Source: Bidens hawaiensis
Lineage: Eukaryota > Streptophyta > Magnoliopsida > Asterales > Asteraceae
Direction: 5' to 3'
Assembly: GCA_021521415.1 (NCBI GenBank)
Contig: JAIQDT010000673.1
Location: forward strand, 744,001 to 808,000
DNA length: 64,000 nucleotides
Position 1 is the stretch's first letter. Each line of letters begins with the position of its first letter. The translations under genes were made by a program, and so were the position numbers. The notes beneath the pieces were generated by a model. The model saw only the letters and a list, made by a program, of their open reading frames with translations, searched no databases and was not told the origin of the DNA. This document shows positions 11,106 through 51,985 of this stretch, one piece after another.

Positions 11106-11291
11106 CTAATTTAAACTAAAGTATGCATGAGCAAGTCATATAACGTTTATAAAGCAAGTCATCCAGTGAAAAAAGATTTATATTTCATAATAATTCAAGT
11201 ATTACAAGAATGGCCGGGTAACTACCCGCCTACAAGAATATAAATCTATACAATGTAAACCTATCCTAACAGTGGGAAGGGATCTTAAGGT

Positions 11292-14200
11292 TCAAGCTTC
11301 AGGACCACTCCCCCCAAACCCACTTGTACCCGCACCATCAGTTGGTTGTGGCGGTTCAAGGAAGGTCTTTAGAATGGCTAGCCCATCATCAGCAGCAGCA
11401 ACTTCGTTCACCTTCTCCACCACCGGATGTGGGAAGGCGGCATACTGATTCACTGCTTGGTAATATACAGCTTCAGTATCAACATCATATAAAGGGAAGT
11501 TGGAAGGCGGGATGCCTTTCTCAACGAACCCTAGACCAAGCAGGAAGCCGGCCTTTTCCCCATCCTCATGAGAAGCGTTGAGGGCTGCGCTCATAGCATC
11601 GTCATAAGATGTATCCGTGAAGACCCGATGCACAACCTACAAAAAGAAAATGTGTCAAAAACCTTTTCTAAGTACAAAGAAAAGCGTAAAGACATTATGA
11701 AGTTAAGCTTACCTGAGACAACGCTTCTCGAAGAAGCCATTCCTTGGCAACCAGAGCCTCCTGAAGTTTCGGCTTCACTTTTATTAAGGTTGGCAAGCAA
11801 CACTTCCTTTGCAGCAGCCTCTTCAACGCCCTTTAGCTTCCGCTCGGTGTGGTCAAGCACGCCCCTCTGGTCCAAGATCTCTTGGAGCTTCTTGGCGTCT
11901 TCCATCGCCAAGGCATCATGAGCCTGTTGAAGCGCCTCTAGTTTGCCTTTAAGTTCCTCATTCTCGAGGCGTAGAGGCTCAGCAACAGCTTCAGCCTTGG
12001 TGGCCCTCTCGGTTGCGTTCCGTGCAGTTTCCTTAGCCAGCCGAAGCTGTTCGTTAACAGCTTGGGCAGCCTTGGAACGGGCCTCGAGACGGGCCTGAAC
12101 TTCAACCTCAAGGGCCTTGAAGGCCTTCTCCTTCTCCGCAGCAAGGGCGGAGAGCCTCCTGTTCTCCTCCCGGACAGCCCGCGCCTGAGCTACTTCTTGG
12201 ATACGAGCTGCTTTTAACTTGTCGTTTTCACGACAAAGCAGCTCGACGCGCGGCTGCATCCGGGCCAGGAGAATCCGAAGCTCATTGGTTAGCCTACCCT
12301 CCTGGTAGCTAGCCATTGCTTCCCCCAACGCACCACTGGGAGCTGCGTGACGAGCCCACTCCACGCACTCCACAGGCGTGCGAAGGGTTGTTCCTCGGCG
12401 GATGTTCCATCGTGGAACATACACTTCATTGGAATCCGACACTGCAAAAACAAAAAGCAGTTAGGAAAAGATGATATAAAAAAATTAAAAAAAAATAAAA
12501 AAAAGAGGCCAAAACAACCCTACGCACCTGTAGGGTCGACAACAGGCCGATAGCCGCCAAACCCATCACCTGAACCCAAGGGAAATCCATCCAAGAGGTC
12601 AGGCAGATGGGAAGGAGGCAGAGGTGGGCGAGAAGCCCCGAGCATACCTGAAGGATCGGCCGTAGTTGCCGACGTCGAAGGAGGCATGGAGGCCGCCGCG
12701 GTAGAAACCAACGGAGGTGAACTCACCGGAGGTGAACTCACAATCGTGGTCGCCACTGCGGAAGAGCCCGCAGAAATAGTCACCGCCGGCTCAGTGAAAG
12801 ATTCAGTAAATATGGCACTGACAGCCGGCGGAGATGTCATCACAGTTGGAACAGTTGGCTCAACTGGGTGAGCAACTGAACCAACTGAAGCAGGCGCAGT
12901 CGCCTGGGTCACCGCCTCAGGTAGGTTGACCAAGCCTACCGTCATGGGTCCGGAGGTGCTCCTCCCCGCTCCACCCTGGAATGCGGCAGCATCCACGCCT
13001 GTACAAAGAAGATATAAGTATAATGGGGGAAAATATGAAGTTAAAATTAACTGAAGTTTGTACTTACGGGTTTTCTTGAGCCTAAAGGTGCGAACAGGCG
13101 GGGACGAACCCGATGGAGCCGGCCTCTTCATGCAGCTCACCGTCGTCGTCCTGGGCTGCTCGGAGGTGACAGTCGTCTCAGCCTCCGGAGCAGTGGTCTT
13201 TTCACCACCTGGGTTCCCCGCCGCCTCCTCGCTCTCGGTCTCTGAATCAGACCGATGCACCGGATCGGCAGTGGAGGCAACCTTCGCCTTCCCCTTCCCG
13301 CCGGCAGCCTTCTTCTTCCGCACCAACGGAGGACCATCTGCGGATTCCTCAGAAGATGACAAGATTAGAGGAATTCCAGCAGAGGTTTCAGCATTGAGAG
13401 GTCGAGGGTTGAATAACGCCTTACCTGGCCGCGTGGGGCTCAGAATAGGGTGGCCTGGCGGGTAGACCTCCACAAACCGATCCCTCGTTTACTCCAAGAT
13501 GGGCAACTCGTTCTCATCGAGAGCACGAGTACCTATCCGAGCGGAACCATCACTCTCCCGCGGCTGCAGGAGAGACTGCAAGTCGTTCCCCTCTGAAATA
13601 AAAGAAACAAACAGTTAGAAGACAAACCTATATAAACAAAGAAGACAGAGCATACCGTAAGGGACAGAGTTCAAACCGTATTCGAGGACGATGGGAACCT
13701 GTGACGCCTCCTTCCACACCCGGCTCATCCCAAGCATCACCATCCCAGACTCCGCAAAGCGGTACACCGGAGTCTGGATCCGAGAGATCTTGGCGAACCA
13801 TTCCGCCTCCTGGTAGTTTGGGGCGTGAAGGGCGGGGAGTGCTATCCCATTCTTAAACGTCATCGCTATCGGGACGACGCGAGCGGAGATATAAAAAAAC
13901 TCCCTCTTCCACGACCGAAGACTGCGCTCGGTTGCGCAGATCTTCAGCCCCTTGATCCGATTGACCAAGGTGTACCACCTCTGGATGCACCTCCAAGAAT
14001 AGAAGGTCATCAACCGGTCAACATGGGGCTCCACGCCCAGAATGAGGCACACCCACTCAAAGTGGTGGATCTTGGCGATCGCCATCGGGTGTACCTCCGT
14101 CAGATGCACACCGTGCCTCTCCAAGACACGGTATACAAACTTCGTCAATGGGAACCTGAGATTCCCATAAACGAAGAATGCAGCGTACACCCCTATCTTG

Positions 14201-14403
14201 CCCTTGGGGGCATCGTACACCGTCTGGTGTGGCTCCGGAAACTCAGGCTCGAACGCCTCGAGCATGAACTTCCGGACGATGTACTGAAAAATCTCGGCAG
14301 GAAGAGCGCACTGGCACTCGCCAGCAGTGCTCTTGTCGTCCTTATCGGAAGTGGACGACGGATTCTCGACGAACACGTCAGACTCCTCGGCAAAAGAAGA
14401 CAT
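11292..14403 (-). pseudogene. Antisense PF04195-like coiled-coil gene, broken copy (element A)
   Basis: Same five-exon layout as in element D. By GT-AG sites the exons are 14403-13656, 13592-13068, 12998-12528, 12441-11713 and 11636-11292. Exon 1 encodes the PF04195-like domain (GNLRFPLTKFVYRVLERHG, HPMAIAKIHHFEWVC). Exons 2-3 are Pro/Ser/Ala-rich with a basic RTFRLKKTRK. Exon 4 is a long coiled coil and exon 5 a conserved C-terminus. Two lesions inactivate it: a TAA in exon 2 (13489-13491) where D has CAA, and a 26-bp deletion in exon 4 near 11766-11776 that shifts the frame. All splice sites are retained. Confidence 0.85.
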
Positions 14404-15529: not shown

Positions 15530-15540
15530 ACTGGGGGGAC
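15530..15540 (+). other. Polypurine tract of element A
   Basis: ACTGGGGGGAC lies immediately before the 3' LTR start TGAAGAGG. The same tract is present in D and, extended by one G, in C. Confidence 0.75.
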
Positions 15541-15541
15541 T

Positions 15542-21850: not shown

Positions 21851-22868
21851 GATGTTTCCCACGAGGGTTGTATCCCACGAGGGTTGTATCCGGCAAGATT
21901 GTTATTCTTCCGATGACCTGCAAAACAGACACCGTGAGCTCGTCACTGAGAAGGGGGGGTACCTCCTTGTGACCACCCTCCGGCGTGAGAATCAGACTAG
22001 ATTGCTCTTGAATATAAGTGTATATTAAGAGAAATGACTAGAGCAGATATCAGATAATATATGGAGATATAAGATATAATACCGTTCCAAGGTGTTGGAG
22101 TATTTATAGCCGAATGTAGGTTTCCAAGCAGGTACAGCCGGCTGAATAGTATTCCTGTTCTACCAACCGTGGGCTACGCACGTGCCATGCTGATGGTTGG
22201 TGGGTAGGCAGCGGCTGATAGTGACCAGGCCGGCTGTGTACTATTCATTTTCCACCAACTGCAGGCTATGGACGTGCCCCGACAGGGGTTGGTGAGTAGG
22301 CAGCGGCTGATAGTGACTTTAAGTACTAGAGCGTGCTGCCCGTCGTACTGTTGTCAGTGAGCTGTCGTAGCTTTGGTCAGATCTTTTGTCCATACCTTGG
22401 CAGGTACAGTACAAAAGATCCTCCAGTATCGTACGGACTGGCTCATTTGGGCGGGAGTATTCCCGGCTTTGAGCGGGAATGTTCCCGGCTTGCTCATCCC
22501 CTCTTCAGGTGACATTACTGAATTATTTGAGAGTTAGTGCCTTGTGCGTGTAGCCTTGCTGCGCGGGTAGCCTTCCCTGATGGCTAGTATCCGTAGCTGC
22601 GGGAACAGGCGGAGTACTTCACCATTGGGAGGCTTTTCTTGCAGGAACAGCTTGCGTACTGCGCGTAAGGACGTCGCGTCTCTGAGCATGGTTGGTCCTG
22701 CGGATCCAGTTGGTCTTTGCGCAGACGTCCCTTTAAGGTGAGTCTTGCGAGTTCAACCGCGCAGACGTCTCTCTTCGAGGTGAGTCTTGCGGGTCCAACT
22801 GCGCAGACGTCCCTGTTTAAGGTGAGTCTTGCGGGTCCAACTGGGCTCTGCTGGGACTTACCTCTTCA
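21851..22868 (-). mobile_element. Fragment B: truncated family-1 LTR, minus orientation
   Basis: It reads as a family-1 LTR on the minus strand. The true 5' terminus TGAAGAGG is intact at 22868-22861. The 3' end is truncated at 21851, after GGGAAACATC, so the last part of U5 is missing. A roughly 16-bp unit (CCCACGAGGGTTGTAT) is doubled at the truncated end. No primer site, gag or second LTR is attached. It differs more from D's LTRs than they differ from each other. Confidence 0.88.
22718..22850 (-). repeat. Three-copy tandem repeat in U3 of fragment B
   Basis: Three consecutive units share GCGCAGACGTC and AAGGTGAGTCTTGCG-type blocks at about 47-bp spacing. The LTRs of A, D and E have a single copy at this place. 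Confidence 0.75.
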
Positions 22869-27440: not shown

Positions 27441-27507
27441 AGTGTTTACTTTTTTAGGCGAAGGAGATAATCAATGAAAAACTTGATACACGATTCTATA
27501 ACAATAG

Positions 27508-28542
27508 TGAAGAGGTATGTACCCGCCTCAACACCGAGCAAGGCGGGTCAACCCACAAGATAAAGACATTATGAAGGCACAAAGCCAAAACCTATGCGCA
27601 TGGCGCATACAAAACATGCTCAGGCATCATATGCCCAGGCATACATATGCTCGCGCATCACATCAGCGCGCGGCGCATATCACATGCTCGTGCATATCAC
27701 ATCTGCCCAGGCACACATATGCTCGCGCATCACATATGCGCGCAGCGCATCAGCGCGCGGCGCATATCACATGCTCGTGCATATCACATCTGCGCATGAA
27801 ATATCTGCGCGTGAGAATAAAGAGAAGACCTCGCGCATCCTCAGGATGGGCGCATATCACACGTGCACATAATCAACCTCGTCCTTATCCAAATCAGGAT
27901 TAGGGCAACCTTGATTGTGCACGTCAGACAACCTTCCAGAAGGCATCTTTTTAAGGAATAGGGATATGCTGATGTTGACAGCTGCTAAATGAAAGGTGGA
28001 CAGCTCAGCATGACTCATGGGTTACCACGTGATTATAACCAATGAAAAAGCACCAGGTGTCTCCGAGGACACGTGGCGCAAATCGATTGGAGGAGCCAAC
28101 AAAACCCTAATCTGATCTCAGCTCAATTAGTGGAAACCCTAGCACTATAAATACAGCATCAACTCGACTTTGATGGACACATTCATACTCAATCATTGAC
28201 AGTTACAGGCAGTGATATCACATTCAATCATATTGAATTACATTCACTCACAGTCAGTTACATACAAACACACAGTCTCACAATCATAGAGTATTCAGCT
28301 ACTAAGCAATACTCTGGAGATTCCCTTACACATCATTATCATCTTCTCCTACACATACTGATTCTCACGCCGGAGGGTTACCCCAAAGAGGACCCCTCTG
28401 TCCCTTTCTGAGGGGTAAGTTAACGGCGCTGTTCATTTTGTAGGTGGAAGAACACGGATCCAGAAGAACCATCGGTGAAATAGTACAATCAAAACCAGAG
28501 GAAAGTAGATCTGCTACCAGCGAGTAGATCCACGTTTCTTCA
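27508..28542 (+). repeat. 5' LTR of element C (1035 bp)
   Basis: Starts TGAAGAGGTATGTACC and ends CACGTTTCTTCA. TATA box TATAAATA at 28146-28153. CACGTG at 28026-28031 and ACACGTGGC at 28069-28077. It contains a CGCGC-rich array of imperfect repeats (27600-27800) with one unit fewer than the 3' LTR. Confidence 0.93.
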
Positions 28543-28543
28543 T

Positions 28544-28558
28544 TGGCGCCATCCGTGG
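28544..28558 (+). other. Primer-binding site of element C
   Basis: TGGCGCCATCCGTGG starts two bases after the 5' LTR. It is nearly identical to the family-1 site. Confidence 0.75.
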
Positions 28559-28571
28559 GATAGCGCCAATG

Positions 28572-30189
28572 GTATTAGGTTGGACTTCAAGAGTACCAAC
28601 AATGAGGCTGAGTATGAAGCCCTGCTGGCTGGTCTGCGCATTGCGCGCAAGTTTGGGGTTAAAAGGCTAGAGGCCCATGTTGATTCTTACTTGGTAGCTG
28701 CTCAGGTCAACGGCCTATATGACGCCAAGGAGAACACAATGCCTCTATATCTAGAGCAGGCAAAAAAGCTCGTTGAGCAGTTTGACTTCTTCAGAATCAT
28801 ACACATCTCGCGCAGCGAAAACAAGTCCACTGACGCGTTGAGTAAAATGGCGTCAACTAATTTTGATCACTTTGGCAAATATGTCAGGGTGGAAGTAATG
28901 AGCAGCCCGTCAGTGCAAACGCAATCGGTCCTTGTAATTCATACAACCCCTTCATCATGGATAACTCCAATAATGGAATTCCTGAAGGAGGGGAAGTTAC
29001 CGGACGATCGCACACAGGCGAGGAAGATAAGACACAAGGCGCAGAACTATGAACTACTTGAGGGTACATTATATCGATGCTCTTATCTTGGACCGCTCAT
29101 GAAATTCCTGGATGCTGAAGAAGCAAGCTATGTGATTAGGGAGATTCACGAAGGAATCTGCGGAATACACGCTGGCCCGCGCATGGTGGTTGCCAAGGCA
29201 ATGAGCGCAGGCTACTATTGGCCAGGCATGTACTTGGATGCGCTAAAAGAAATCCAAAAATGCAAGGCATGTCAGAGCCACGCGCCAAACACCATGCGGC
29301 CAAAGAACAACTTGATTCCAGTGACCTCCGCATGGCCTTTCCATAAATGGGCCATTGATATTGTGGGGCCCCTGCCGCAAGCGCAAGGGCGAGTGAAATT
29401 TTGGTAGTGGCAGTAGACTATTTCACAAAATGGGTTGAAGCCAAGCCACTAGCAAAAATCACAGCTGAGGCGATGAAGCAATTTATCTGGAGCCACATCA
29501 TTTGCCGTTTTGGCCTTCCTATGGAAATTGTGAGCGACAATGGCAAACAATTCACTGACAGGAAGATATCCAGCTGGCTCAAAGAATTGCACATCAACCA
29601 AATCTTCACTTCGGTCTACCACCCTCAAGGGAATGGCCAAGTGGAGCGCGCGAATCAAAGTTTGTTAAATGGGCTGAAGAAAAGGTTGGAGGGAGAATCC
29701 CATTCTTGGGTCGAAGAGTTACCTAATGTCCTGTGGGCGCACAGGACATTAAGCAAAACTAGCAACGGCGAATCCCCGTTCAGCCTAACCTATGGGACAG
29801 AGGCTATGATCCCAGCAGAAATTGGATGCCCATCCCATAGGGTACTCATGATGAGCAAGACTGACAACGAGCGCGAAAGAAGATTGGACCTCAACTTGCT
29901 TGAAGGGCGCAGAGAAGCGGCTATCATCAATGAAGCCAAATACAAGAAAAAGCGGGAAAAATATTATAATCAGCGCGTTAAAGAATGCCACTTCAAGAAA
30001 AATGATTTTGTCCTTCAAAACAATGAAGCTAGCCGCGCGATACCACCAGGAAAAATGTCCCCCAATTGGGAGGGACCTTATCAAATTTCAGAAGATTTGG
30101 GGAAAGGCGCGTACACTTTAAAAGATTTGAATGGAAAAAAGATACCGCGCGCGTGGAACGCGGCACAGCTTAGAAAATGCTTCATGTAA
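28572..30189 (+). pseudogene. Truncated RNase H-integrase of element C
   Basis: An internal deletion joins the primer-site region directly to the middle of RNase H: NNEAEYEALLAGL, with its catalytic Glu, is present, but the first catalytic Asp is lost. Then follow the integrase zinc finger (H-x-H then CKACQSH) and the catalytic core: D in WAIDIVGPLP, D in VSDNGKQFT and E in NGQVERANQ, with 35 residues between the last two. The Tat-style C-terminus contains NWEGPYQISEDLGKGAYTL. A one-base loss in the T run at 29399-29402 shifts the frame inside the core, between 28580-29407 and 29401-30189. With RT also absent, C cannot move itself. Confidence 0.9.
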
Positions 30190-30367
30190 AAGTTCAAATA
30201 TGTAATCAAGGCTTTTAAGCCATCATGAATGATGATTCGCGCTATCTTTCAATATTTGTTCTATTACCTTTGCATACATGTTTCACACTTCCTTTATTAA
30301 TTTGGAGCAATATGACAACACTATATTGACTTCAAAACAAAATAAAACGAAGTAAAACATACATGCG

Positions 30368-30515
30368 CGAGCCTTAGCTCAAACGCGTTAACGAGTCTTA
30401 ACTCTAAAACGTCAGGGCCTTAGCCCAAACCTACGAGCCTTAGCTCAAACACGTTAATGAGTCTTAACTATAAAAACGTCAGGGCCTTAGCCCCAAACAA
30501 AGAGCCTTAGCTCAA
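30368..30515. repeat. Tandem repeat in element C
   Basis: Two full units and a partial third of about 66 bp, with GAGCCTTAGCTCAAA and GTCAGGGCCTTAGCC. It is non-coding and lies between pol and the antisense gene. Confidence 0.8.
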
Positions 30516-31018
30516 AACATTCACAAACATCCATCTTACATCCCGCGCAGCCTGATCATAAAAATCCCTAAACACAACTAAGGCAAAGTACATGCCAAAT
30601 CATAGTTGTTAAGGTCTCAGGTCGAGGTCGCGCGCGGAATCATAGTGGATATCTGAGTAACACATGCTGACATGTAATGGCTAAAACTCATACTTCCATA
30701 TAAAAAACGCGCGACAACGACGCGCAAAAAAGGAATTGTGAAAAGTCATCGCGCATGTCAGCATAAACAAGATACTGCGAAACCACTTACAAAATAGGAC
30801 TATGGTTAAGCGAATAATTTCCTTACAACCTTATTCTTATTTTAACGTGCAAGCATATCTTATATCTATACAAGCAAACATGAAGAGATGAATGGAAATG
30901 CGCAAGATGTGAAAAAAGGGAAAACAAGTTTCATTCCATAGCATTGAAATTTACAAGTATGATGAGTTACAAATTACAATTATAAATAAAAAATATATAA
31001 AATTTGATGAAGGGCTTC
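30516..31018. other. Non-coding spacer of element C
   Basis: AT-rich with scattered CGCGC motifs. It should contain the 3' end of the antisense transcript, since TTTGTAA-type signals occur just after its stop, but no firm terminator can be shown. Confidence 0.4.
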
Positions 31019-34000
31019 TCAAGTCTCCACGTCGACGTCAGCCGCTTCATCACCCTCATCATCTCCCTCAGCATCTGGCGCGGCCCGCTCCTCATCTCCG
31101 AACTGACCATAGTCAAGTTCTTCCTCCTCATTGGAGTCTTCTATTACGACGGTGTCAGGAGCAGATTCTTTCGCAGCGCCAGAGCCGCTGGCAGGGGCAA
31201 CATCCCTCGCGCCACCATCATCGCCACCAGCCCTCTCGCATTCATCGAGCAACTTCTTTAGCGCGCCGAGGTCGGGCTGGTCAGCAAGCGCAGCTATCTG
31301 CAAATTATTAGAAAAGTATTGAGTACAAAACACTTGGAAAATTAATCAAGAAAAACTCATTAAGGTCGAGGTACCTGCATAAGGATGGGGATGGGAGTAT
31401 TCATATACTTCTCCCCCACCGCGGCCATGTCCGCGCAGGCCGCGTCGCTCTTGTAAGGGTACTCGGATGGGTTCTTCTTCAACATGCCATATTCATACCC
31501 ATCCGTAAACCCTTCAGCTCGACCCACCAAGCGCGCGGCAGCATTGCAGTCCATCACAAGGGCCTGAAACTCGGCGGAATATTTCATCGCCAAAGCGCAA
31601 CGAGTCATGCCCTGTGACACCAGCCATTGGCGATCCTGCGCGAGGCCAGCAACAGACGTCTCGAGGGCAGGAACCTGGGAGTTTAATAACTCAACAGTTT
31701 CCTTGGTCTTTTTTAGCTCCTCTTTATCAGACGCTGCTGCCGCCAAAATTTTTTCTTTCTCCGCCTGCGCAGCATCAAGTGCTTCCTGGCTGGACGCTGC
31801 CGTCGCCAAGACCTCATCTCTATCGGCCTGCGCGGCCGCCAACTCCTTCTTCAGGCGCGTAACCTCGCTCTCCAGTGATGATTTCTCAGTGATACTCTGG
31901 ACGATAGCTTGGTCACGCGCCTCCGCCTGCTGTTCCAAGACACGCACTCTCCGCGCGTACTTGGCAACTTCGGCCTCCGCCACCTGCTGCTTCTCCCGCG
32001 CAGCTTGGAGCTCATGCCCGCGCTTGATAAAGGCGGTGTTGGCACTTGCTCGGTTTTCGCTGAGCTCCGCCTGGAGTTTCTCAGCTCGTGCGCGAGCATC
32101 AGAAAGGTTCCAGGCGGCCACCTTAGCCTCTCGCTGGGCTTCCACAAGAGCATCGCGTACTTTAATATAATCACGACGAAGCTCCTGGGAGGCAGCAAAA
32201 AAAGCTGACCCAGCGAAAATATGGTCATTCAGCAAGTCCGCGCGGGTGCGCTCCTCCTGATACCTCCTTTCAGTAGGAGGCACGGCATGAGCCCAGAAGT
32301 CCTCGCATACGCCCATGGATTGGAAGGAACTGTCTTCATTAATATTCCATCTCGGGCGGTAAACGTGGTCACCTTCCTGCAAAACACAAGAAATGTTCTA
32401 AGTCATAAAACATACTTATATGGAGGTACGCGCAGCGGAGCAAAAAATTAAAACATACCTGCGGGGATGAAGCAGAAAAGTCAGCGCCAGCCCCACCAGA
32501 AGTCTGCGCGGCGAACTCTTGTGGCATCGCAGGGCTGGCGCGGTCTCCCAAGGAGTCTTCAGCTTGAGCCCCCTCATCCTCCTCATCTTCTTCAATAGGC
32601 CTCTTCTCCTGCGACCTGGAGGGCTCCAAACCAGTCTCGCGGGGAGGGCTGCGTGTAGGTTGAGGCGAGGGAGGTCTCGACGCCGCCAGTTCGGCGCGCA
32701 ATACGGTTTCCTGCTCCTTGGTAATCCCAATAAGAGGAGACTCAGCACTAGCAGGAGCAGGAGCAGAACCAGCGGCGCCGGCAACGGCGCCAGGAGTGTC
32801 AACAGCAACTTGTGCGCCAGCTACAACTCCTACGAACAAATCAACAAGGAAAAATGGTTTATGACTGAATCCAAAAGAAAAAATTCAGAAGACAAATGTG
32901 CAAAACATACCTTGGCGCAATTCTATTCGCGCGGCGAACATCGCCATAAAGTTCATTCTACCCTTTTCAGAGGGTAGAACAGGGGACTTCGAAGCAGACC
33001 CCGGCGCAGTCTCAGCACCTTGTGGCGCCTGCGGCTGATCTGCGACCGTCGCCGGTCCTGCAAACATTCAAAGGAGAAAAGGTTTAATAATAATTCAATC
33101 AGATGAAGATAAGCAAAGTATACCTGTCGCAGGCGCGGCACCGCTTCTCTCTTCAGCCGCGCGAATAGAGGAGGTGACGCCACCATACCTCAAGTGGACA
33201 GGGGGTCTGCCCACTCTCACAGGCAGGGAAGCTAAAGAAACCTTGGTGGTAAACACCTGGGTTTCCTTAGGTCCCTTCGTTTGAGCATGGGGATGAGCGA
33301 CAGGGGTGTCATCTTTCTTCTGTTTCTTACTGGCCCATGCGCCAGATTTCCCCTTAGCTTTGCGTTTTAGTAGGGGCGCCTCCTCTTCCTCCTCCTCCTC
33401 TTCCGCGAGCTCCAGCTCATAGTTTTCGAGCGCATCTGCAAAAACAAGAAACAGAATTGTTAATAAACTTTGGTATTCTAAAGGAATAAGCATAAGTGCG
33501 AAGGCTTACCAGGCGCGTCGCTATCAAAGTCAAATTCCAGATCCACTGGGATGAACATGTCATCGAAGCGATCTGGGAAACCAACCTCCCCAGCGCCAAG
33601 CGCGACGGAGCCACCCTCCACTTGATCATCATAGGCGGCGTGGATATAATCCTTGGTGACTGCGCAAAAACAAGTCAAGTGATATCAGCAAAACAATTAT
33701 GTTCGCGCAGAAAAATAAATAAAGCAATGAAATAAACTTACATAACCCGTCGACTTGGATTACGGGCTCAAGCGCGCTGTCAGCCCACAGCTTACTCATG
33801 CCGACCCCCACCAGCGCCTCCTCGCGAATGCTCTTGGCGGGGGATGGTTCAGTGGTCAGCTTATTAACCCAGGCGCCAGTTGGGTTCTTGAGGACACCCT
33901 CATCCGCAGGCGCAGAAGAGGTAGAGCGCATGGTCATACGGATGGGGATCACACCAGCCCTTATGTAAAAGAACCTCTCAGACCAGTCATGAAGGCTCTT

Positions 34001-34570
34001 GAATGAAACAGTGGAGCACTTCACCTTCTGACTGCGAGGAATAAAAGAGAACCAATTGTCTTGGATCTTGGGCTTGTAAAAATACTGAAAGCGCCGAGGA
34101 GTGGGCTCCTCGCGCTGGGATTTGCACATGAACTCAAAGTGAGTCACGCGCACGAGTCCAAACGGATGGACTTGGGATATATGAATCCCATAGAACTTCA
34201 GCAGTGCACCCACAAACCTTGTTATCGGGAGACGAAGGTTGCAGTGGGTGAAAAAATGGCTATATAGGGATATATAGCCGGCAGGCGGGTCCGCCGCCGT
34301 TTGCCCGTCCCCAGGCAACATGCAGCCAAACAGGGTGGGAAAGCCCTGAGAGGCGATAAGGCTGTCAAGATCAGCCTGCCTCAATTTGCAGGGGATTTCA
34401 TTCCACCTCCTCACCACCTTGGTCCTCCTTACCTCCTCCGATGAGCCCTCAGCAACCTTCTTCCCCTTGCCTTTCTTCTTCAACGTCGACATCACTACGG
34501 ATTTCACGCGGCGTTTTCGAGAAACGATTGAGGTGATCGACGGGTTTGAGGAGTCCGAACAATCAGACAT
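31019..34570 (-). CDS. Intact seven-exon antisense gene of element C (PF04195-like, coiled coil)
   Basis: Exons by GT-AG sites: 34570-33742, 33659-33510, 33435-33124, 33057-32911, 32829-32459, 32376-31375 and 31297-31019. Lengths sum to 3090 nt, every junction keeps frame, and no stop occurs before TGA at 31019-31021, giving 1029 aa. Residues 1-276 are PF04195-like (NLRLPITRFVGALLKFYGI, VTHFEFMC). The middle is acidic then basic (KRKAKGKSGAWASKKQKK, a likely nuclear signal), followed by Pro/Ala-rich sequence. Residues 604-937 form a long coiled coil after VYRPRWNI, and the tail is acidic. Biochemical function is unknown. It lies between pol and the 3' LTR on the opposite strand. The start could be the ATG at 34585, but MSDCSD at 34570 looks better. 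Confidence 0.82.
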
Positions 34571-34703
34571 ACAACTGAAAATCAAACGGAAACTTCTGAA
34601 GAACAGATTTTTGGGAAGCAGAAAAAAGGATAATCAGAAGACAAAGAAAGAAAAGCTTAGAAGAATAAGCAAGAAGGTGAAGGATAAAAACTCTAAGGGC
34701 TGG

Positions 34704-34711
34704 CTTTTATA
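34704..34711 (-). promoter_or_regulatory. TATA box of the antisense gene in element C
   Basis: TATAAAAG on the minus strand in CCTATAAAAGCC, about 135 bp before the ATG. CACGTG cores lie about 80 bp (34790-34795) and 182 bp (34893-34898) upstream. Confidence 0.7.
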
Positions 34712-34747
34712 GGCCCAGGAGAGAGAAATTTTGATGATGAACGGACT

Positions 34748-34940
34748 TCACGCGCCCCCACTCGCGGGTCTAAGCCAATGCGAGCGTCACACGTGTCCCT
34801 GACACTGTGTGAGGAGACATGAAAGGAAACTATACGGCTGCTGCCAGAGTTCACGTGCCCCCACTCGCAGGAACGGACCAACGCGAGCGCGACACGTGTC
34901 CCTGACAGCATGTGAGGGGACACGAAAGGCAACTGTAGCA
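34748..34940. repeat. Two-copy repeat in the antisense promoter of element C
   Basis: Two units of about 105 bp share TTCACG, GCCCCCACTCGC, GCGAGCG and ACACGTGTCCCTGACA. Each carries one CACGTG. Confidence 0.75.
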
Positions 34941-35149
34941 CCTCGAGCACACGAAATGTCTGACACGTCTCCATCACTGACCCACGTCAGCAACCGTCAC
35001 GTACACAGACGATTCGTTTTCAACCGAATGGATAGAACTTCGCGCAACGATGGAAACAACCAAGAAAACGACAAAAACCCGTTAAAAGACCAAATCAGTA
35101 AGTCTAATATCTATCTTACCGCGCTCGCGCGAGATAAGACACACATTAG

Positions 35150-35160
35150 ACTGGGGGGGC
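35150..35160 (+). other. Polypurine tract of element C
   Basis: ACTGGGGGGGC precedes the 3' LTR start at 35162. Confidence 0.75.
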
Positions 35161-35161
35161 T

Positions 35162-36212
35162 TGAAGAGGTATGTACCCGCCTCAACACCGAGCAAGGCGG
35201 GTCAACCCACAAGATAAAGACATTATGAAGGCACAAAGCCAAAACCTATGCGCATGGCGCATACAAAACATGCTCAGGCATCATATGCCCAGGCATACAT
35301 ATGCTCGCGCATCACATATGCGCGCGGCGCATCAGCGCGCGGCGCATATCACATGCTCGTGCATATCACATCTGCCCAGGCACACATATGCTCGCGCATC
35401 ACATATGCGCACAGCGCATCAGCGCGCGGCGCATATCACATGCTCGTGCATATCACATCTGCGCATGAAATATCTGCGCGTGAGAATAAAGAGAAGACCT
35501 CGCGCATCCTCAGGATGGGCGCATATCACACGTGCACATAATCAACCTCGTCCTTATCCAAATCAGGATTAGGGCAACCTTGATTGTGCACGTCAGACAA
35601 CCTTCCAGAAGGCATCTTTTTAAGGAATAAGGATATGCTGATGTTGACAGCTGCTAAATGAAAGGTGGACAGCTCAGCATGACTCATGGGTTACCACGTG
35701 ATTATAACCAATGAAAAAGCACCAGGTGTCTCCGAGGACACGTGGCGCAAATCGATTGGAGGAGGCCAACAAAACCCTAATCTGATCTCAGCTCAATTAG
35801 TGGAAACCCTAGCACTATAAATACAGCATCAACTCCACTTTGATGGACACATTCATACTCAATCATTGACAGTTACAGGCAGTGATATCACATTCAATCA
35901 TATTGAATTACATTCACTCACAGTCAGTTACATACAAACACACAGTCTCACAATCATAGAGTATTCAGCTACTAAGCAATACTCTGGAGATTCCCTTACA
36001 CATCATTATCATCTTCTCCTACACATACTGATTCTCACGCCGGAGGGTTACCCCAAAGAGGACCCCTCTGTCCCTTTCTGAGGGGTAAGTTAACGGCGCT
36101 GTTCATTTTGTAGGTGGAAGAACACGGATCCAGAAGAACCATCGGTGAAATAGTACAATCAAAACCCGAGGAAAGTAGATCTGCTACCAGCGAGTAGATC
36201 CACGTTTCTTCA
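35162..36212 (+). repeat. 3' LTR of element C (1051 bp)
   Basis: Nearly identical to the 5' LTR except for an extra roughly 15-bp unit in the CGCGC-rich array and a few substitutions, indicating a young insertion. Confidence 0.93.
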
Positions 36213-36892
36213 AATAGGTTTATGAGAATATGTGATCTATGAAGAATGTGCCACCAAGAATCTTGAACTTCTAAACTTAAGTATCGATCAAACTTGTCAC
36301 GGTTTATTCACAATATGAACAATATGATTGTAACATTAACCGTGCCTCCGCTACCCTTATTTATTTTTATACATCTTACGTTTTGACTTATTTTGATATG
36401 TATTCATGTAACTGAAGTGTTTGCATTGTCCCCCCTATGTGTGCCTTGAATTTATGTTATGTTCGCTTTTGTAAGTTTACAGCTTTTCCCTATTTATAAA
36501 CTTTTTTTATAAATACAACTGCATCAAATTTATAGATATCAAAAAGGTAACACATCATAAATGCTATTGGCCTTTAGTAAAAATAAATCAACGGTCCAAA
36601 CTCCAAACCACCAAGTGCCATTAATTTACACTTAAAAAAGTACAAGAGTCATAATGTAGTGTTACTTAAAAAGTATATATATCATTAAATAGTTAAAAAT
36701 AAATAAATAAATAAATATCACAACTATAGATCCGTTCACGTTCCCAATCACCACCGACACCTCCCTCCAGGTCATCAGCTGGCCCACCAGTTAACAACTG
36801 CCCGTAACACTCAGATCTGCCCGAACTCACCTTCAATCTCTCATCTTTAAAAAAAATTAAACAAAATTTAACTGTAATAATAATTTACTAAT
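36213..36892. other. Intergenic DNA between element C and the LEA-2 gene
   Basis: AT-rich. It probably holds the 3' untranslated region of the LEA-2 gene at its right end. Nothing else recognised. Confidence 0.4.
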
Positions 36893-38467
36893 TTACACAA
36901 CATTGCAAGAGTTTTTGAGTGAAAGTGGCACATTGACTTTGGTGGGCTTGTAGGCAATGTCACATGAAACCCTTCTATGGAACTTGGGTTTCACGAGTTT
37001 GCCGAGCACATACGCCTTGGCTTTCACCGTGAAAGTCAGGTTCAGCGGCACTGGTGCGGTCATTTTGCCGTTCTGGCTACTCCAGTTCACACCGCCGCCG
37101 TATAATGGAACATGGCGGCCCTGTATGTTCACACTCACTAGCCTGTGCCCCTTTCTTGACTGGTAAAATTTCTTGATCTGCAAGATACACATTTAATTAT
37201 GAAACCGATGTTACAGTAACTAGATTCGTGTGAAATTGAGATAAAATCAACAATGCCCTTGCGAAAATTAAAATCAAATTAGCAACATTCATGTGAAATT
37301 GGGATTAAATTAGCAAGACTTAGGTGAAATTGAGATCAAATTAGCAAGATTTATGTGAGATTGGGATCAAATTAGCAAGACTTAGGTGAAATTGAGATCA
37401 AATTAGCAAGATTTATGTGAGATTGGGATCAAATTAGCAAAATACCTATGTGAATACTGAGATCAAATTAACAAGATCCATGTAAAATTGAGATCATATT
37501 AGCAATACCCATTTGAAATTGAGATCAAATTAGCAAGATTTATGTAAAATTGAGATCATAGCAGCAAGATCCAAGCAAAATTGGGATCCAATTAGCAAGA
37601 TCCGAGTGAAATTGGGTTCAAATTAACAACACCCATGTGAAATTACGATAAAATAAGCAAGATTTATGTGAAATTGGGATAAAATTAGCAACACCCATGT
37701 GAAATTGACACCAAATTACTACAATTTAGCTGAAAACTCGAGTGACTTACAGTTCCGGAAGCTAGAGTTAGCTCGGTATATGACAGATCAATAGGCGTGG
37801 ATGAAACATGAACTCCAAAGAAGGTACCCCTGTTTCGGAAACTGAACTTAATGGTAGCATTCAAATTCACCATCTCTGTAGCAACCCCAGACGCATCCGC
37901 TCCAGCATTCACCACAAACTCATCAAACGAAATACTCTGCAATTCAATTCAATTCAAAACATCAAATTCCAAACCCCCAATTCAATTCAATTCACTCACC
38001 CAAAACCAAAACCAATACCCAATTACCCTCATAACAATATCCGGTTTCTGCGGCTTAGCAGCAGCCCACAACACCAACGCGAAGAACGAGAACAGCACAA
38101 AGAACCCGACAACAAACGCCAGAAAGTAACACCGGCGAGGTATCCCACGGCGGTAATGATCGTCAACGAGACCCTCTTCCTCAATGGCGTCGAACCCTTT
38201 TCCGTCTTTCGGAGCCTGGGTGGGTTTTCTGGATCCGGGTCGGAGGGACCCGGAGAAGCGGGTGGAGGAAGAGTTGCGGGAGTGGCGGCCCGGGGAGGCG
38301 TTGGGGCTTAAGACAGGGGTAGAGTGGAAGGAATTGGTGGTTTTCTCGCCGTCGTGGGAGTCACGTGAGGGGCTCTGGACGAAGTAGACGGGGCGGATGG
38401 GAGATCTGGTCGGAGACGACGCCGTTTGGCTCGTCACCTCAGAATCGGTCTTTGCGTGCATTGACAT
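36893..38467 (-). CDS. LEA-2/NHL-type single-pass membrane protein
   Basis: Three exons by GT-AG sites (38467-38027, 37936-37751, 37177-36893), all in phase 0, 304 codons including stop (303 aa). The N-terminus is Ser/Pro-rich with RPVYFVQSPSRDSHDGEKT. A transmembrane helix lies at about residues 113-135, after a basic RRGIPRR. An LEA-2 (WHy-like) beta-rich domain follows at roughly 155-290 (GVHVSSTPIDLSYTELTL, KAYVLGKLVKPKF). This pattern matches the plant family that includes Arabidopsis At1g45688 and At5g42860, whose role is poorly defined (membrane-anchored, NDR1/HIN1-like relatives act in stress or defence). The length is normal and the reading is undisrupted. Confidence 0.9.
37216..37735. 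repeat. 31-bp minisatellite in intron 2 of the LEA-2 gene
   Basis: About 15 diverged units share TTAGCAAGA, ATGTGAAATTG and GATCAAA. They fill most of the 573-bp second intron, between exon 2 and exon 3. Confidence 0.9.
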
Positions 38468-42434: not shown

Positions 42435-42443
42435 TTCTTATAA

Positions 42444-43385
42444 GGGAAAATTCCCAAAATAGTCCAAAGTTATAGAGAGATTCTCATAATAGTCCCTTAA
42501 ATTTCGCTATTCCCAAAATAGTCCAACCAAATCTATCGGGCCCGATAGATTTTCAAAAAATCCGATTTGTTTCGCGGTCCAGTGAAAAATGTCTCGGTGC
42601 CAAATGTCTCACTCCCACCTAACCCCGTTGATTTTCACATCAAAATACTCGGTCCAGATGGGTTTCCCCTCAAATCAATCTCCTCTCAAAACCATCTCCC
42701 CACATTGCTTTCCCCATGCTTTCATCTCCAACATTGGTTTTTAACCACCATACTTTCCGGCCACCAATGTTAAAGATCTGGGTGAAATTATAATAAAGTT
42801 ACAAACTTTGATGCTGAAACAGATCTGGGTAACATAATTGTTAAAGAAGTATATGAGACGTATAACTTACAACATGGAAAGTATAACTGATAAGGCCGGT
42901 GAATGGATTAAAGCATCAAGATGTGATTTTGAGAAGTGGGTTGGTTATAATTTTTGGGTTTGATGAGGGTACCTACCGCCATTGTTGGATGGGAGATTGA
43001 GGAAGAAAGAAGAAGAGGGTGTCGTTAATTAATGAAGACAAAGGACAAAGGTTAGTAACACACAGTATATGGTGGCCGGAAAATATGGTGGTTGAAAACC
43101 AATGTTGGAGATGAAAGCATGAGGAAAGCAATGTGGGGAGATGGTTTTGAGAGGAGATTGATTTGAGGGGAAAACCATTTGGACTGGGTATTTTGAGGTG
43201 AAAATCAACAGGGGTAGGTGGGAGTGGGACACTTGGAACCTTTTCACTGAACCGCGAAACCAATCGGATTTTTTGGAAATCTATCGGGCCCGATAGATTT
43301 GGTTGGACTATTTTGGGAATAACGAAATTTAAGGGACTATTATGAGAATCTCTCTCTAACTTTGGACTATTTTGAGAATTTTCCC
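42444..43385. mobile_element. Mutator-like element with about 320-bp TIRs
   Basis: The left arm (42444-42767) and the right arm (43066-43385) are inverted copies at roughly 90 percent identity by eye, starting GGGAAAATTC. The flanks TTCTTATAA (42435-42443) and TTCTTATTA (43386-43394) match at 8 of 9. The roughly 300-bp centre encodes no transposase. Long open frames across the arms are incidental. Confidence 0.85.
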
Positions 43386-43476
43386 TTCTTATTATCATTT
43401 TCTTGAAATCTGTTTTTTAGTTTTACTATAATCATATAATAACCGTCAATTACTTAAGAGATACTATTTGTAATGC

Positions 43477-44451
43477 TGAAGAGGTAGGTCCCAGCAGAGC
43501 CCAGTTGGACCCGCAAGACTCACCTTGGAGAGACGTCTGCGCAGAAACCAACTGGATCCGCAGGACCAACCATGCTCAGAGACGTGACGTCCTTACGCGC
43601 AGTACGCAAGCTGTTCCCGCAGGAAATGCCTCCCAATGGTGAAGGACTCCGCCTGTTCCCGCAGCCTCGGATACAAGCCATCAGGGAAGGCCACCCGCGC
43701 AGCAAGGCTACACGCACAAGGCACTTAGCTCTCAATCACTCAGTGTCACCTGAAGGAATGAGCAAAGCCGGGAACAACACCGCACAGTGGCGGGAGGGGG
43801 AATACTCCCGCCCTAATAAGCCAGTCCGTACGATACAGGAAGATCTTCTGTACTGTACCTGACGAGGTATGGGCAAAAGATCTGACTAAAGATACGACAG
43901 CTTATTGACAACAGTATGGCGAGCAGCATGCTCCTGTACTGTATGTCACTATTAGCCGCTGCCTACTCACCAACTACTGCCATACCACGTGCATAGCCGG
44001 CAGTTGGTGGAAAAGGAATGGTACACAGCAGGCCTGGTCACTATCAGCCGCTGCCTACCCACCAACTACCAGCAGGGCACGTGCGTAAGCCACTGTTGGT
44101 TGAAAAGGAATACTATTCAGCCGGCCACACCTCCTTGGAAACCTACCTTCGGCTATAAATACCACAAATGGTATGACCATCATATCTGATCATATTATCA
44201 TCATATTATACCTGATATCTGCTCTAGCAATCTCTTAATATACTTTTATATTTAAAGAGCAATCTAGTCTGATTCTCACGCCGGAGGGTGGTCACAAGGA
44301 GGAACCCCCCCTTCTCAGTGACAAGCTCACGGTGTCTGTTTTGCAGGTTATCAGAAGAACCATCTTTGCCGGGTCTAACCCCTCGTGGGAAACATCTATC
44401 TAACCCCCAGGTTACCCGTAATCTGCCAGGGAACCGGTTAGTGGTTCTTCA
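43477..44451 (+). repeat. 5' LTR of element D (975 bp)
   Basis: TGAAGAGGTAGGTCCC to GTGGTTCTTCA. TATA box TATAAATA at 44154-44161. U3 holds a direct repeat of about 90 bp, each copy with a CACGTG (43986-43991 and 44078-44083). Confidence 0.95.
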
Positions 44452-44452
44452 T

Positions 44453-44467
44453 TGGCGCCATCCGTGC
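44453..44467 (+). other. Primer-binding site of element D
   Basis: TGGCGCCATCCGTGC, one base after the LTR end. The tRNA is not certain; the TGGCGCC core fits tRNA-Asp-type priming. Confidence 0.75.
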
Positions 44468-44513
44468 ATAAAGCTAGAACATTTTTCTCCAGCTTTTTCA
44501 AACTTCTGGAAAG

Positions 44514-46055: not shown

Positions 46056-46229
46056 AGAACGAGATGCCGAACCAGGTGCGTATCGGCTCGATGGCACTCC
46101 CATCCCAGCAACATGAAAGGGAGCTCATTTACACAGTTTGCATGTAAATCAATTCCAAATTTGTAAAGAAAAGGCCAAGAGCCACTTTTAATGGAAATGA
46201 TTCTCCTTAGAACATCGATGCTGATACTT

Positions 46230-47375
46230 TTATGAACTTCCAACACGAATATGCCGGTTTTCACCGCATAATTACGTGAAAAGTCGTTGCATGGGGAAGG
46301 CGGCAAAACCCGCATAAACCCAAAAAACGGCAAACCTTCACGCAGGTCAGTTGAAGGGGAAAAGTTCAGTCATCCCACTAAATGAAAGTGCCGGTCTGTC
46401 CGCATGAATCATGATAGAGGAAACTGAACACTAACCTATTAACAACCGCGCGTCGAACGGTTAATTTATTAAACACTAATATGCCGGTTTTCACCGCATA
46501 ATTACGTGGAAAGTTGTTGCATGGGGAAGGCGGCAAAACCCGCATAAACCCAAAAAACGGCAAACCTTCACGCAGGTCAGTCAAAGGGGAAAAGTTCAGT
46601 CATCCCATTAAATGAAAGTGCCGGTCTATCAGCATGAATCATGAGAGGAAACTGAACACTAACCTATTGACAACTACGCGGCGAACAATTAACTTATTCA
46701 AGAAAATTTCTAATAAAAGGATGAGAAAAACCTACACGCAGGTCAGATATAGGTAAAGTTTAGCCATCCTACTAAGTGCAAGTGACGGTCCTACCCGCAC
46801 AATCACGAAAGAGGAAGCAAAACTTCAACCTATTATCTACCACGTTCAAAGGTTAACTTATCCTAAACACTTAGAAATTCCAAGAAAGGATGAGGAAAAC
46901 CTACACGCAGGTCAGATATAGGTAAAGTTTAGCCATCCTACTAAGTGCAAGTGACGGTCCTACCCGCACAATCACGAAAGAGGAAGCAAAACTTCAACCT
47001 ATTATCTACCACGTTCAAAGGTTAACTTATCCTAAACACTTAGAAATTCCAAGAAAGGATGAGGAAAACCTACACGCAGGTCAGATATAGGTAAAGTTTA
47101 GCCATCCTACTAAGTGCAAGTGACGGTCCTACCCGCACAATCACGAAAGAGGAAGCAAAACTTCAACCTATTATCTACCACGTTCAAAGGTTAACTTATC
47201 CTAAACACTTAGAAATTCCAAGAAAGGATGAGGAAAACCTACACGCAGGTCAGATATAGGTAAAGTTTAGCCATCCTACTAAGTGCAAGTGACGGTCCTA
47301 CCCGCACAATCACGAAAGAGGAAGCAAAACTTCACACCTATTATCTACCACGTTCAAAGGTTAACTTATTCTAAA
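46230..47375. repeat. Tandem repeat arrays between gag and antisense gene (element D)
   Basis: Two units of about 235 bp (46250-46485 and 46486-46700, GGCGGCAAAACCCGCATAAA core) are followed by four units of exactly 169 bp, with GTCAGATATAGGTAAAG starting at about 46742, 46911, 47080 and 47249. The 169-bp units are almost identical, so the expansion is recent. Element A has only two of them. Confidence 0.92.
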
Positions 47376-47584
47376 CACTTGGAAAATTGCTAATTTAAAC
47401 TGAAGTATGCAAGTCATATAACGTTTATAAAGCAAGGAATACAGAGAAAACAGCGGTCTTACCCGCACAAAGATTTATATTTCACAATGACTCATTACAA
47501 GAATGGCCGGGTAACTACCCGCCTAAAAGAAAATAAATCTATACAAGCTAAATCTATCCTAGCAGTGGGAAGGGATCTTCAGGA

Positions 47585-50500
47585 TCAGGCTTCAGGGCCA
47601 CTTCCACTTGGACCAGCACCATCAGTAGAGCGTGGCAGTTCAAGGAAAGCTTTAAGGATAGCTAGCCCATCATCAGCAGCAGCAACTTCGTTTACCTTCT
47701 CCACCACCGGATGCGGGAAGGCGGCGTATTGATTCACTGCTTGGTCGTATACGGCTTCAGTATCTACATCGAATAAAGGGAAGTTGGAAGGCGGGATGCC
47801 TTTCTCAACGAACCCTAGACCAAGCAGGAAGCCGGCCTTTTCCCCATCCTCGTGAGAAGCGTTGAGGGCTGCGCTCATAGCATCGTCATAAGACGTCTCG
47901 GTGAAGACTCGATGCACAACCTACAAAAGAAAATATACAAGTGTCAAAACCTTTTCTATTTACAAAGAAAAGCGTAAAGACATGAAAACATTACCTGAGA
48001 CAACGCTTCTCGAAGAAGCCATTCCTTGGCAACCAGAGCTTCTTGGAGGGCAGCTTGAGCTTCGTTACGGGCGCGTTCGGCTTCACTCTTGTTGAGGTTG
48101 GCAAGCAACACTTCTTTAGCCGCAGCCTCTTCGACGCTCTTTAGCTTCCGCTCAGTATGGTCAAGCACCCCCCTCTGGTCCAAGATCTCCTGGAGCTTTT
48201 TGGCGTCTTCCATCGCCAAGGCATCATGAGCCTGCTGGAGAGCCTCTAATTTGGCTTTAAGCTCTTCATTCTCCACTCGTAGAGGCTCAGCAACAGCTTC
48301 AGCCTTGGTGGCCCTCTCGGTTGCGTTCCTCGCAGTTTCCTTAGCCAGCCGAAGCTGTTCATTAACAGCTTGGGCAGCCTTGGAACGGGCCTCGAGTCGA
48401 GCCTGAACTTCAACCTCGAGGGCCTTGAAGGCCTTCTCCTTTTCCGCAGCCACTGCGGAAAGCCTTTGGTTCTCCTCCCGGACAGCCCACGCCTGAGCCA
48501 CTTCTTTAAGGCGAGCTGCTTTTAACTTGTCGTTTTCACGACAAAGCAGCTCGACGCGCGGTTGCATCCGGGCTAGGAGAACCCGAAGCTCATTGGTTAG
48601 CCTACCCTCCTGGTAGCTAGCCATAGCTTCCCCCAACGCACCACTGGGAGCAGCGTGACAAGCCCATTCCACGCACTCCACAGGGGTGCGAAGGGTTGTT
48701 CCTCGGCGAATGTTCCAACGTGGAACATACACTTCATTGGAATCCGACACTGCAAAAAACATAAAGCAGTTAGGAAAAGATGATATAAAAATAAAAAATA
48801 TATATATATATATATATATGAAAAGGGCCAAAAGAACCCTACGCACCTGTAGGGTCAATAACAGGCCGATAGCCGCCGAACCCATCACCTGAACCCAAGG
48901 GAAATCCATCCAAGAGGTCAGGCAGATGGGAAGGTGGCAGGGATTGGCGTGAAACCCCATGCGTACCTGATGGATCGGCCGTCGTTGCCGATGACGGGGG
49001 CATGGTAGCAGCCGCCGCGGTCGCCGCCGCGGAATCCGCAGCAAAAGTAACCGCCGGCTCGGTGAAAGATGCCGTAAAAATGGCACTCACAGCCGGCGGT
49101 GACGTCATCTCGGCAGGAACAGTCGGCTCAAAGGAGTGAGCAACTGAACCAGCGGAAGCAGGCGCAGGCGCCTGGGTCGTCGCCTCAGGTAGGCTGACCA
49201 AGCCTACCGTCATTGGCTGAGAGGTACTCCTCTGCGCTCCACCCTGGAATGCGTCAACATCCACGCCTGCGTAAAGAAGATAAGTGTTAAACGATATTAA
49301 ACTATGAAAAAAGATAAAGGAAGTCTGTACTTACGGGTTTTCTTGAGCCTAAAGGTACGGAGAGGCGGGGACGAACCCGATGGAGCCGGCCTCTTTGCGC
49401 CGGTTACCGTCGTCTTCTTGGGCTCTCCGGAGGTGACAGTCGCAGCCTCCGGAGCGGTGGTCTTATCACCACCGGGATTCCCCGCCACCTCTTCGCTCTC
49501 GGTCTCCGAATCAGACCGAGGCACCGGATCGGCAGTGGAGACCACCTTCTCCTTCCACTTCCCACCGGCAGCCTTCTTCTTCCGCACCAACGTAGGACCA
49601 TCTGCGGATTCCTCATCAGAACATACGATTAGAAGAATTCCAGCAGAGGTTTCAACATTGAGGGGTCGAGGGTTGAATAGCTCCTTACCTGGCCGCCTGG
49701 CGCTCAGGATCTCGTGGCCTAGCGGGTAGACCTCCACGAACCGATCCGCTGTTTGTTCTAGGATGGGCAGCTCGTTCTCGTCTAGAGCGCGAGTACCCAT
49801 CCGAGCGGGACCGTCAGCCTCTCGCGGGTTCAGGAGCGACTGCAAGTCGTTCCCCTCTGAAATAAACAGGAAAAAAGTTAGAAGAAATTCAGAATCAACA
49901 ATAAGAAACAAAGCATACCGTAAGGAACAGAGTTCGAACCGTATTCAAGGACGATTGGGACCTTTTGCGCATCCGCCTCCTTCCACACCCGGCTCATCCC
50001 CAGCATCACCATCCCGGACTCCGCAAACCGGTAAACCGGAGATTGGACTCGGGAAATCTTCGTAAACCATTCCGCCTCCTCATAGTTGGAGGCGTGAAGG
50101 CTAGGAAGTACTTGCCCGTTCTTGAATTTCATGGCAAGGGGGATGGCGCGAGCGGATATGAAGAAGAACTCCCGCTTCCACGCGCGAAGACTGCGCTCGG
50201 TGGCGCAAATCTTCAAACCCTTAATCCGGGTTATCAACGTATACCACCCCTGGATGCACCTCCAAGTGTAGAAGGTCATCAGGCGGTCAACATAGGGCTC
50301 AATGCCCAGAATCCGGCACACCCACTCGAAGTGGCGAATCTTGGCGATCGCCATGGGGTGCAACTCGGTCAAATGAACACCGTGCCTCTCAAGGACACGG
50401 TAAACAAACTTTGTCAGTGGGAACCTAAGATTCCCATAGACAAAGGATGCAGCATACACCCCGATCTTGCCTCTGGGGGCATCGTACACCGTCTGGTGGG

Positions 50501-50639
50501 GTTCAGGAAACTCAGGCTCGAGAGACTCGAGCATGAACTTCCTGACGACGTACTGGTACAGATCGACAGGCAGAGCACACTGGCACTCCCCAGCAGTACT
50601 ATTGTCATCGGCTGTAGATTCAAGATCACGAGACGACAT
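47585..50639 (-). CDS. Intact five-exon antisense gene of element D (PF04195-like, coiled coil)
   Basis: Exons by GT-AG sites: 50639-49919, 49856-49335, 49266-48847, 48749-47995 and 47920-47585. The lengths sum to 2754 nt, every junction keeps frame, and the product is 917 aa. Exon 1 (residues 1-240) is PF04195-like: GKIGVYAASFVYGNLRFPL, RVLERHGVHL, HPMAIAKIRHFEWVC. Exon 2 is acidic/Ser-rich and ends in basic RTFRLKKTRK. Exon 3 is Pro/Ala/Ser-rich. Exon 4 (about 555-806) begins VYVPRWNIRRGTTL and forms a long coiled coil. Exon 5 is a conserved roughly 110-residue C-terminus (HRVFTETSYDDAMSAAL). It is homologous in order and key blocks to the element C gene. Molecular function is unknown. The coiled coil and basic patch suggest a self-associating, perhaps nuclear protein (inference). 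Confidence 0.85.
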
Positions 50640-51984: not shown

Positions 51985-51985
51985 T

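Follow-up and report, generated by a model that had tools for sequence, protein, structure and literature searches.

A gene lying antisense within an LTR retrotransposon raises the questions of whether it is a functional gene and, if so, whom it serves. The case considered here was read in the window, the 64,000-nt stretch of Bidens hawaiensis DNA that was analysed, on the minus strand from 34570 to 31019. A preliminary description had claimed a seven-exon gene inside an LTR retrotransposon (here element B) that stays in frame across six GT-AG introns to give 1029 residues without a stop. Re-splicing gave the same gene, and LTRs and a target-site duplication were found around it (Table 1). The introns are 82, 74, 66, 81, 82 and 77 nt long, every one GT-AG, and the spliced coding sequence of 3090 nt, stop codon included, encodes 1029 residues with no internal stop. 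Left unspliced, the reading frame would be lost through in-frame stops in introns 2, 3, 4 and 6 and through frameshifts from introns 1 and 5; we infer that the gene is spliced. On one side it is bordered by the integrase region and on the other by the 3' LTR.

Table 1 Coordinates in the window of element B, its antisense gene and the antisense homologues in elements A and C
Feature	Position	Strand	Remarks
Target-site duplication, left copy	27503..27507		AATAG
5' LTR of element B	27508..28542	+	1035 bp; TGAAGA...TCTTCA
RNase H-like (PF13456) and integrase zinc-binding (PF17921)	28553..29405	+	sense frame
Integrase core (PF00665)	29359..30187	+	sense; frame different from that of 28553-29405
Antisense gene exon 7 and stop	31019..31297	-	
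Antisense gene exon 6	31375..32376	-	VYRPRWN motif, then charged, nearly Pro/Gly-free stretch
Antisense gene exon 5	32459..32829	-	
Antisense gene exon 4	32911..33057	-	
Antisense gene exon 3	33124..33435	-	
Antisense gene exon 2	33510..33659	-	
Antisense gene exon 1	33742..34570	-	basic N-terminal extension and PF04195-bearing folded core
TATA box	34705..34711	-	TATAAAA; 141 nt before ATG
Tandem repeat upstream of antisense promoter	34747..34934	-	103-nt unit, 1.8 copies
3' LTR of element B	35162..36212	+	1051 bp
Target-site duplication, right copy	36213..36217		AATAG
Element A antisense homologue	11291..14403	-	exon plan as in C; one in-frame stop and a 26-nt deletion
Element C antisense homologue	47585..50639	-	five exons, 917 residues, no internal stop; stop codon 47587-47585

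The preliminary description had pointed to PF04195 (Transposase_28, TRP28), and the spliced protein matched that profile at residues 107-166 (E=2.7e-6, 27.9 bits versus a curated cut-off of 26.2). The match is enclosed by the folded core (about residues 56-260) that follows the basic extension, and pattern matches placed basic clusters at residues 18-40 and 350-369. The charged part of the exon 6 product (about residues 645-900) was read as coiled-coil-like; its 3.5-residue periodicity was not clearly above that of other parts of the protein. When the full spliced protein was compared with a set of 5.8 billion proteins, none of the 7992 scored candidates reached E<=0.001, perhaps owing to the scarcity of spliced plant proteins in the set and a query rich in low-complexity sequence. 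The exon 1 product alone found five relatives, three of them named Helianthus. A profile search of solved structures returned a single match (E=0.94), which was taken as chance, fold searches with the protein gave no usable match, and Rfam models matched nothing across the 64-kb window.

Of 1035 aligned sites, 4 distinguish the two LTRs of element B, which also show one 15-base and one 1-base gap. By this measure the insertion is young, and a substitution rate of 1.3e-8 per site per year would put it at about 0.15 million years. Given this youth, the open antisense frame of element B by itself says little. The two sense frames overlap, the first beginning about 10 bases past the 5' LTR, and Pfam searches of both detected neither gag nor reverse transcriptase (RT). 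Gag, protease and RT are missing, the LTR running straight into RNase H at a deletion junction near 28569. Pol had been described as deleted and frameshifted, and only RNase H-like and integrase domains are left, in two frames. A further claim, that the antisense product had been kept longer than pol, was not supported. We searched the genome with 28440-29000 and scored the best 40 of 3928 first-look candidates, window included. Among these the LTR-to-RNase H junction was spanned by the window copy only, and all 39 others started at 28566-28569, within the RNase H-like frame. As these 39 stop short of the junction, the deletion is private to element B among the scored copies. In the sister copy, the one copy so read, the neighbouring 5 kb form a single open frame of 1612 codons from gag to integrase in which the domain order is gag, RT, RNase H, integrase; protease models gave no match to this frame at E<=0.001. 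At least the sister copy keeps the coding capacity of both strands. That element B belongs to a replicating family without pol was considered and rejected, since the junction was found in only one of the 40 scored copies. An imperfect 67-nt tandem repeat (30368-30516) lies between the integrase and the end of the antisense gene.

The antisense PF04195 gene suggests the name Retand for the lineage of element B. An antisense PF04195 ORF located between pol and the 3' LTR is a trait of that lineage and is present here. The interval from pol to the 3' LTR (30190-35161, about 4.97 kb) and the LTRs (1035 and 1051 bp) fall within the ranges published for Retand elements in PMC11963269, 2,933-6,566 bp and 315-1,194 bp, respectively. 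The internal region (28543-35161, about 6.6 kb) is shorter than the published 7,380-12,869 bp owing to the private deletion (PMC11963269). The window copy has RNase H-like and integrase domains in place of gag and a complete pol set, and the order gag, RT, RNase H, integrase is seen in one close copy. Retand clusters are described as including copies that miss some domains (PMC11963269).

To ask whether the antisense frame is maintained, we turned to other copies in the genome (3.47 Gb in 15902 contigs). The best 40 of 4890 first-look DNA candidates were scored and 30 loci were cut out, window included; all 29 others were used and, being the best matches, these are probably young. Every one of the 29 keeps the ATG. 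One or two stops were found in six copies, a one-base frame gap in two and an altered intron 2 acceptor in two, one of which also has a stop; 20 of the 29 have no stop, frameshift or lost splice site. Compared with B the copies gave dN/dS values of 0.20 to 0.61, and mean dN over mean dS was 0.25 across the 435 pairs of the 30 sequences. The preliminary description had named a ratio near 1 among copies with frequent stops as evidence against its reading; what we found was this ratio of 0.25 and stops in 6 of 29 copies, all in variants seen once.

A low ratio could also arise in a neutral passenger, the frame being open because the copies are young and dN/dS being low because methylated cytosines are hypermutable. 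The youth of element B agrees with this, as does exon synonymous divergence in excess of intron divergence. Since methylated cytosines could inflate synonymous divergence in this way, singleton variants, presumably mostly post-insertion, were taken as a neutral control from the same copies and compared with variants shared by at least two copies. Singletons comprised 187 nonsynonymous, 7 stop and 122 synonymous changes, and shared variants 109, 0 and 154 (p=1.9e-6). Sites showing more than two letters (56) and singleton sites whose major letter makes a stop (2) were excluded from these counts. For stops only the figures were 7 of 316 singletons versus 0 of 263 shared variants (p=0.018). Stratified by mutation class the contrast persisted (CMH p=1.8e-5, odds ratio 2.16), and it was seen within C>T/G>A (p=6.7e-5) and within transversions (p=0.035), although not in T>C/A>G (p=0.46). 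All of these p-values are to be read as guides, given the relatedness of the copies and the neutral-looking singletons that assembly errors would contribute.

By module, the contrast was found in the core (p=0.018), exons 2-5 (p=0.028), exon 6 (p=0.040) and exon 7 (p=0.013), and in exons 2-7 together (p=7e-4); the N-terminal extension gave none (p=0.72). Shared variants of exons 2-7 fall on codon positions 1, 2 and 3 in the proportions 32:30:77, singletons in the proportions 79:70:113. Third positions account for 77 of 139 shared variants in exons 2-7 and 78 of 124 in exon 1, an excess that is independent of the singletons. Constraint specific to the codon frame in the 29 other copies, together with diverged antisense homologues in two further elements of the window (described below), shows the gene to be more than a chance reading frame, and comparison of the copies indicates protein-level purifying selection on it. 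We consider a neutral passenger very improbable given that the same-copy control differs from the shared variants even in C>T/G>A and in transversions. The earlier suggestion that the antisense product may serve the element is strengthened, since with selection acting at the protein level it probably does.

The introns and promoter of the copies were also compared. All six introns are retained in all 29 copies (174 of 174), as expected if unspliced sense RNA is the template of reverse transcription, which is how the preliminary description had accounted for their survival. Splice dinucleotides were altered in 2 of 696 cells versus 453 of 12702 for intron interiors; counted by position, 1 of 24 splice-dinucleotide sites was variable versus 95 of 438 interior sites (p=0.038). 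All 30 B-type sequences have a TATA box 124 to 141 nt before the ATG, and elements A and C have theirs at -123 and -131; in the four sequences tested, 0.7-2.3% of block shuffles per sequence produced such a box.

Conservation of the TATA box would also be expected if the active product were the antisense RNA itself, which would pair with genomic RNA and tune the element via double-stranded RNA and siRNA, the open frame being incidental. The transcript would indeed overlap the genomic RNA, an RNA role is among the options named in PMC7264820, and antisense transcripts that lower retrotransposition are described in PMC12786077. However, a pure RNA role predicts neither constraint that tracks codon positions and amino acids nor the lack of stops among 263 shared variants, so that we regard it as improbable; an RNA role could act in addition to that of the protein.

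Antisense homologues were found in two more elements of the window, A and C. Element C spans 43477-52960 (LTRs at 43477-44451 and 51986-52960). Element A spans 8460-16535 with a 3' LTR at 15542-16535, and window self-alignment revealed no 5' LTR for it. Gag was identified in C by PF03732, and alignment to C showed it in A as well. In C, gag is separated from the antisense stop by no more than about 1.5 kb, mostly tandem repeat, and this interval is collinear with that of A; hence, both elements lack pol. In both, tandem arrays flank the antisense gene on either side (e.g., four 169-nt units at 46716-47385, five 97-nt units at 51120-51602). The core of the B product is about one third identical to those of A and C, and the three proteins have a common plan: core, disordered part, VYxPRWN, coiled-coil-like part and C-terminal part. 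That all intron positions are common to B and C was rejected: two places are alike, after the TRP28 core and before VYxPRWN (the latter in a different phase), and the rest differ. A further LTR of the A/C family at 62737-64000 runs into the window end, and an apparently solitary LTR in inverse orientation lies at 21869-22762.

Between A and C the antisense gene gave dN 0.071 and dS 0.388, a ratio of 0.18 over 900 codons with 1 stop codon left out. The other two frames gave ratios of 1.3 and 1.7 (43 and 68 stops left out), values above 1 that a neutral passenger does not explain, and gag, compared over 517 codons with 3 stops excluded, gave 0.26. Most simply, selection on the antisense gene would have continued within a lineage already without pol, although A and C may have lost pol separately.

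These diverged homologues bear on two further explanations. In the first, a host gene was lately captured in antisense orientation, and the many exons with short introns do resemble those of a cellular gene. The homologues in A and C argue against this, as do the 4890 first-look DNA candidates (of which the best 40 were scored) and the statement in PMC11963269 that TRP28 is not found outside transposable elements, and a recent capture seems to us scarcely credible. In the second, the antisense protein is not a transcription regulator but part of the particle or integration complex, acting for example in nuclear import or target choice and mostly for its own element. Such a role would fit the selected homologues (dN/dS 0.18) of elements without pol, the basic clusters of the protein and the proposal of nuclear entry in PMC7264820. 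A separate promoter suggests separate timing, which speaks against it, and we hold this role to be possible but rather unlikely.

Comparison with the copies also brought an unexpected result, an apparent exchange block. The 29 copies were classed by promoter match to B as near (2), class 2 (8) and class 3 (19). Mean differences between B and class 3 were 1.6% in the integrase, 1.3-3.8% in exons 2-7 and 4.7% in the LTR. They rise to 8.7% in the exon 1 core, 17% in the N-terminal extension and 20% in the promoter, and are still 13% over the next 400 bases upstream; dS steps from 0.04-0.05 in exons 2-7 to 0.28 and 0.59 in exon 1. At sites that separate classes 2 and 3 within the upstream region, promoter and exon 1, B goes with class 2 at 55 of 80, with class 3 at 20 and with neither at 5, 15 of the 80 being promoter sites that are circular because the classes were promoter-defined; the independent contrast is that of exon 1 versus the rest. 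Elsewhere B goes with class 3 at 14 of 16 such sites, with class 2 at 1 and with neither at 1. In exon 1 all 8 class 2 copies lie at a distance of 0.051-0.060 from B, and all 19 class 3 copies lie farther off, at 0.069-0.128. The means are reversed for exons 2-7 with introns (0.035 to class 2, 0.024 to class 3) and for the LTR (0.091 and 0.048), with overlapping ranges in both cases. From this reversal, the promoter and TRP28 exon probably moved between sublineages as one block. Elements A and C, too, diverge most strongly in exon 1 (dS 0.69 versus 0.25-0.35) and in introns 1 and 2 (32% and 38%).

The ordinary cause of such an exchange would be template switching during reverse transcription; a bolder one is that a putative binding domain is matched to a putative binding site. 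Taken further, the latter would make the gene a self-contained, intron-bearing cassette in which the promoter and TRP28 exon, a matched site and domain swapped as a block, set which sublineage is served, and which families without pol keep for cis or lineage-specific action. We offer this extension as speculative and doubtful.

Our preferred reading, to which we give a probability of roughly 0.5, is that the gene is an accessory antisense TRP28 gene of a Retand-type Ty3/gypsy element that is spliced and encodes a nuclear regulator of its own lineage. From the TATA promoter, a spliced mRNA antisense to the genomic RNA would be made. The protein, with its basic nuclear-localisation-like N-terminus, compact TRP28 core, disordered middle and coiled-coil-like part, would act as a nuclear oligomer that binds element DNA or RNA and would regulate transcription of its own element lineage. 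The introns would persist since copying goes through unspliced sense RNA, and the promoter and TRP28 exon would travel together between sublineages as expected of a matched binding site and domain, although template switching also explains this. The window copy of element B has lost gag, protease and RT, a loss private to it among the scored copies. In sum, the gene is a real, selected and probably spliced accessory gene of a known type whose anatomy is now better resolved; the mechanism given here is our inference.

The known type is that of the antisense TRP28 ORFs present in 97% of recently active Retand clusters, for which a DNA-binding regulatory role has been proposed (PMC11963269); Transposase_28 was reported in 23% of Retand elements in PMC6317226. 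The B gene resembles these ORFs in orientation, position between pol and the 3' LTR, PF04195, nearby tandem repeats and sizes within range. It differs in that the survey considered ORFs from 600 bp upwards and its text does not contain the word "intron" (PMC11963269), whereas here there is a seven-exon gene with a selection test, and in that the element B copy is without gag, protease and RT. The maize Grande gene23, known to us through the review PMC7264820, is likewise an antisense accessory gene with its own upstream promoter, and its product is nuclear; in element B the sequence shows a conserved TATA box and basic motifs, which may correspond to these traits. RIRE2 is among the other elements treated in that review, which calls for antisense and spliced transcripts to be examined. 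By its descriptions, the antisense ORFs of RIRE2, Wallabi, Gran3 and PvRetro13 are alike in position and orientation, and the PvRetro13 product is said to contain an SMC domain (PMC7264820). HBZ and APH-2 of HTLV, named in PMC11963269, are antisense nuclear regulators of a retroelement, to which the likeness is functional only and implies no homology; in HTLV the antisense promoter is situated in the 3' LTR (PMC7264820), whereas that of element B is internal. Antisense ORFs and transcripts are treated in general terms in PMC12786077, and the available part of a study of expressed sunflower elements (PMC7730604) does not use the word "antisense". The literature surveyed, in the parts available, describes neither a multi-intron TRP28 gene nor an exchange block; the 2013 Grande paper lies outside it, and we claim no priority for the introns. 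ORF surveys that do not consider splicing may catch only fragments of the TRP28 protein. Together, the gene model with introns, conserved promoter position, internal neutral control and exchange block make TRP28 function testable.

In a genome search for PF04195, the best 150 of 19592 candidates were scored. Among the top matches, three (L001, L002 and L015) lie on one strand within 80 kb of contig C173 and two (L003 and L004), identical in exon translation, lie 110 kb apart on contig C315; none of the five has a stop inside the match. These may belong to a different lineage of elements or form a local cluster of genes. Elsewhere in the window, element B has as neighbour an exon of a LEA-2-like gene (37982-38467) whose best named relatives are from Helianthus (80-81%) and Lactuca (79%), and a 31-nt minisatellite of about 16 copies (37222-37718) adjoins this exon. 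An inverted repeat (42442-43387), perhaps a small DNA transposon, closely precedes the 5' LTR of element C; its arms, about 325 nt long, are 92% alike.
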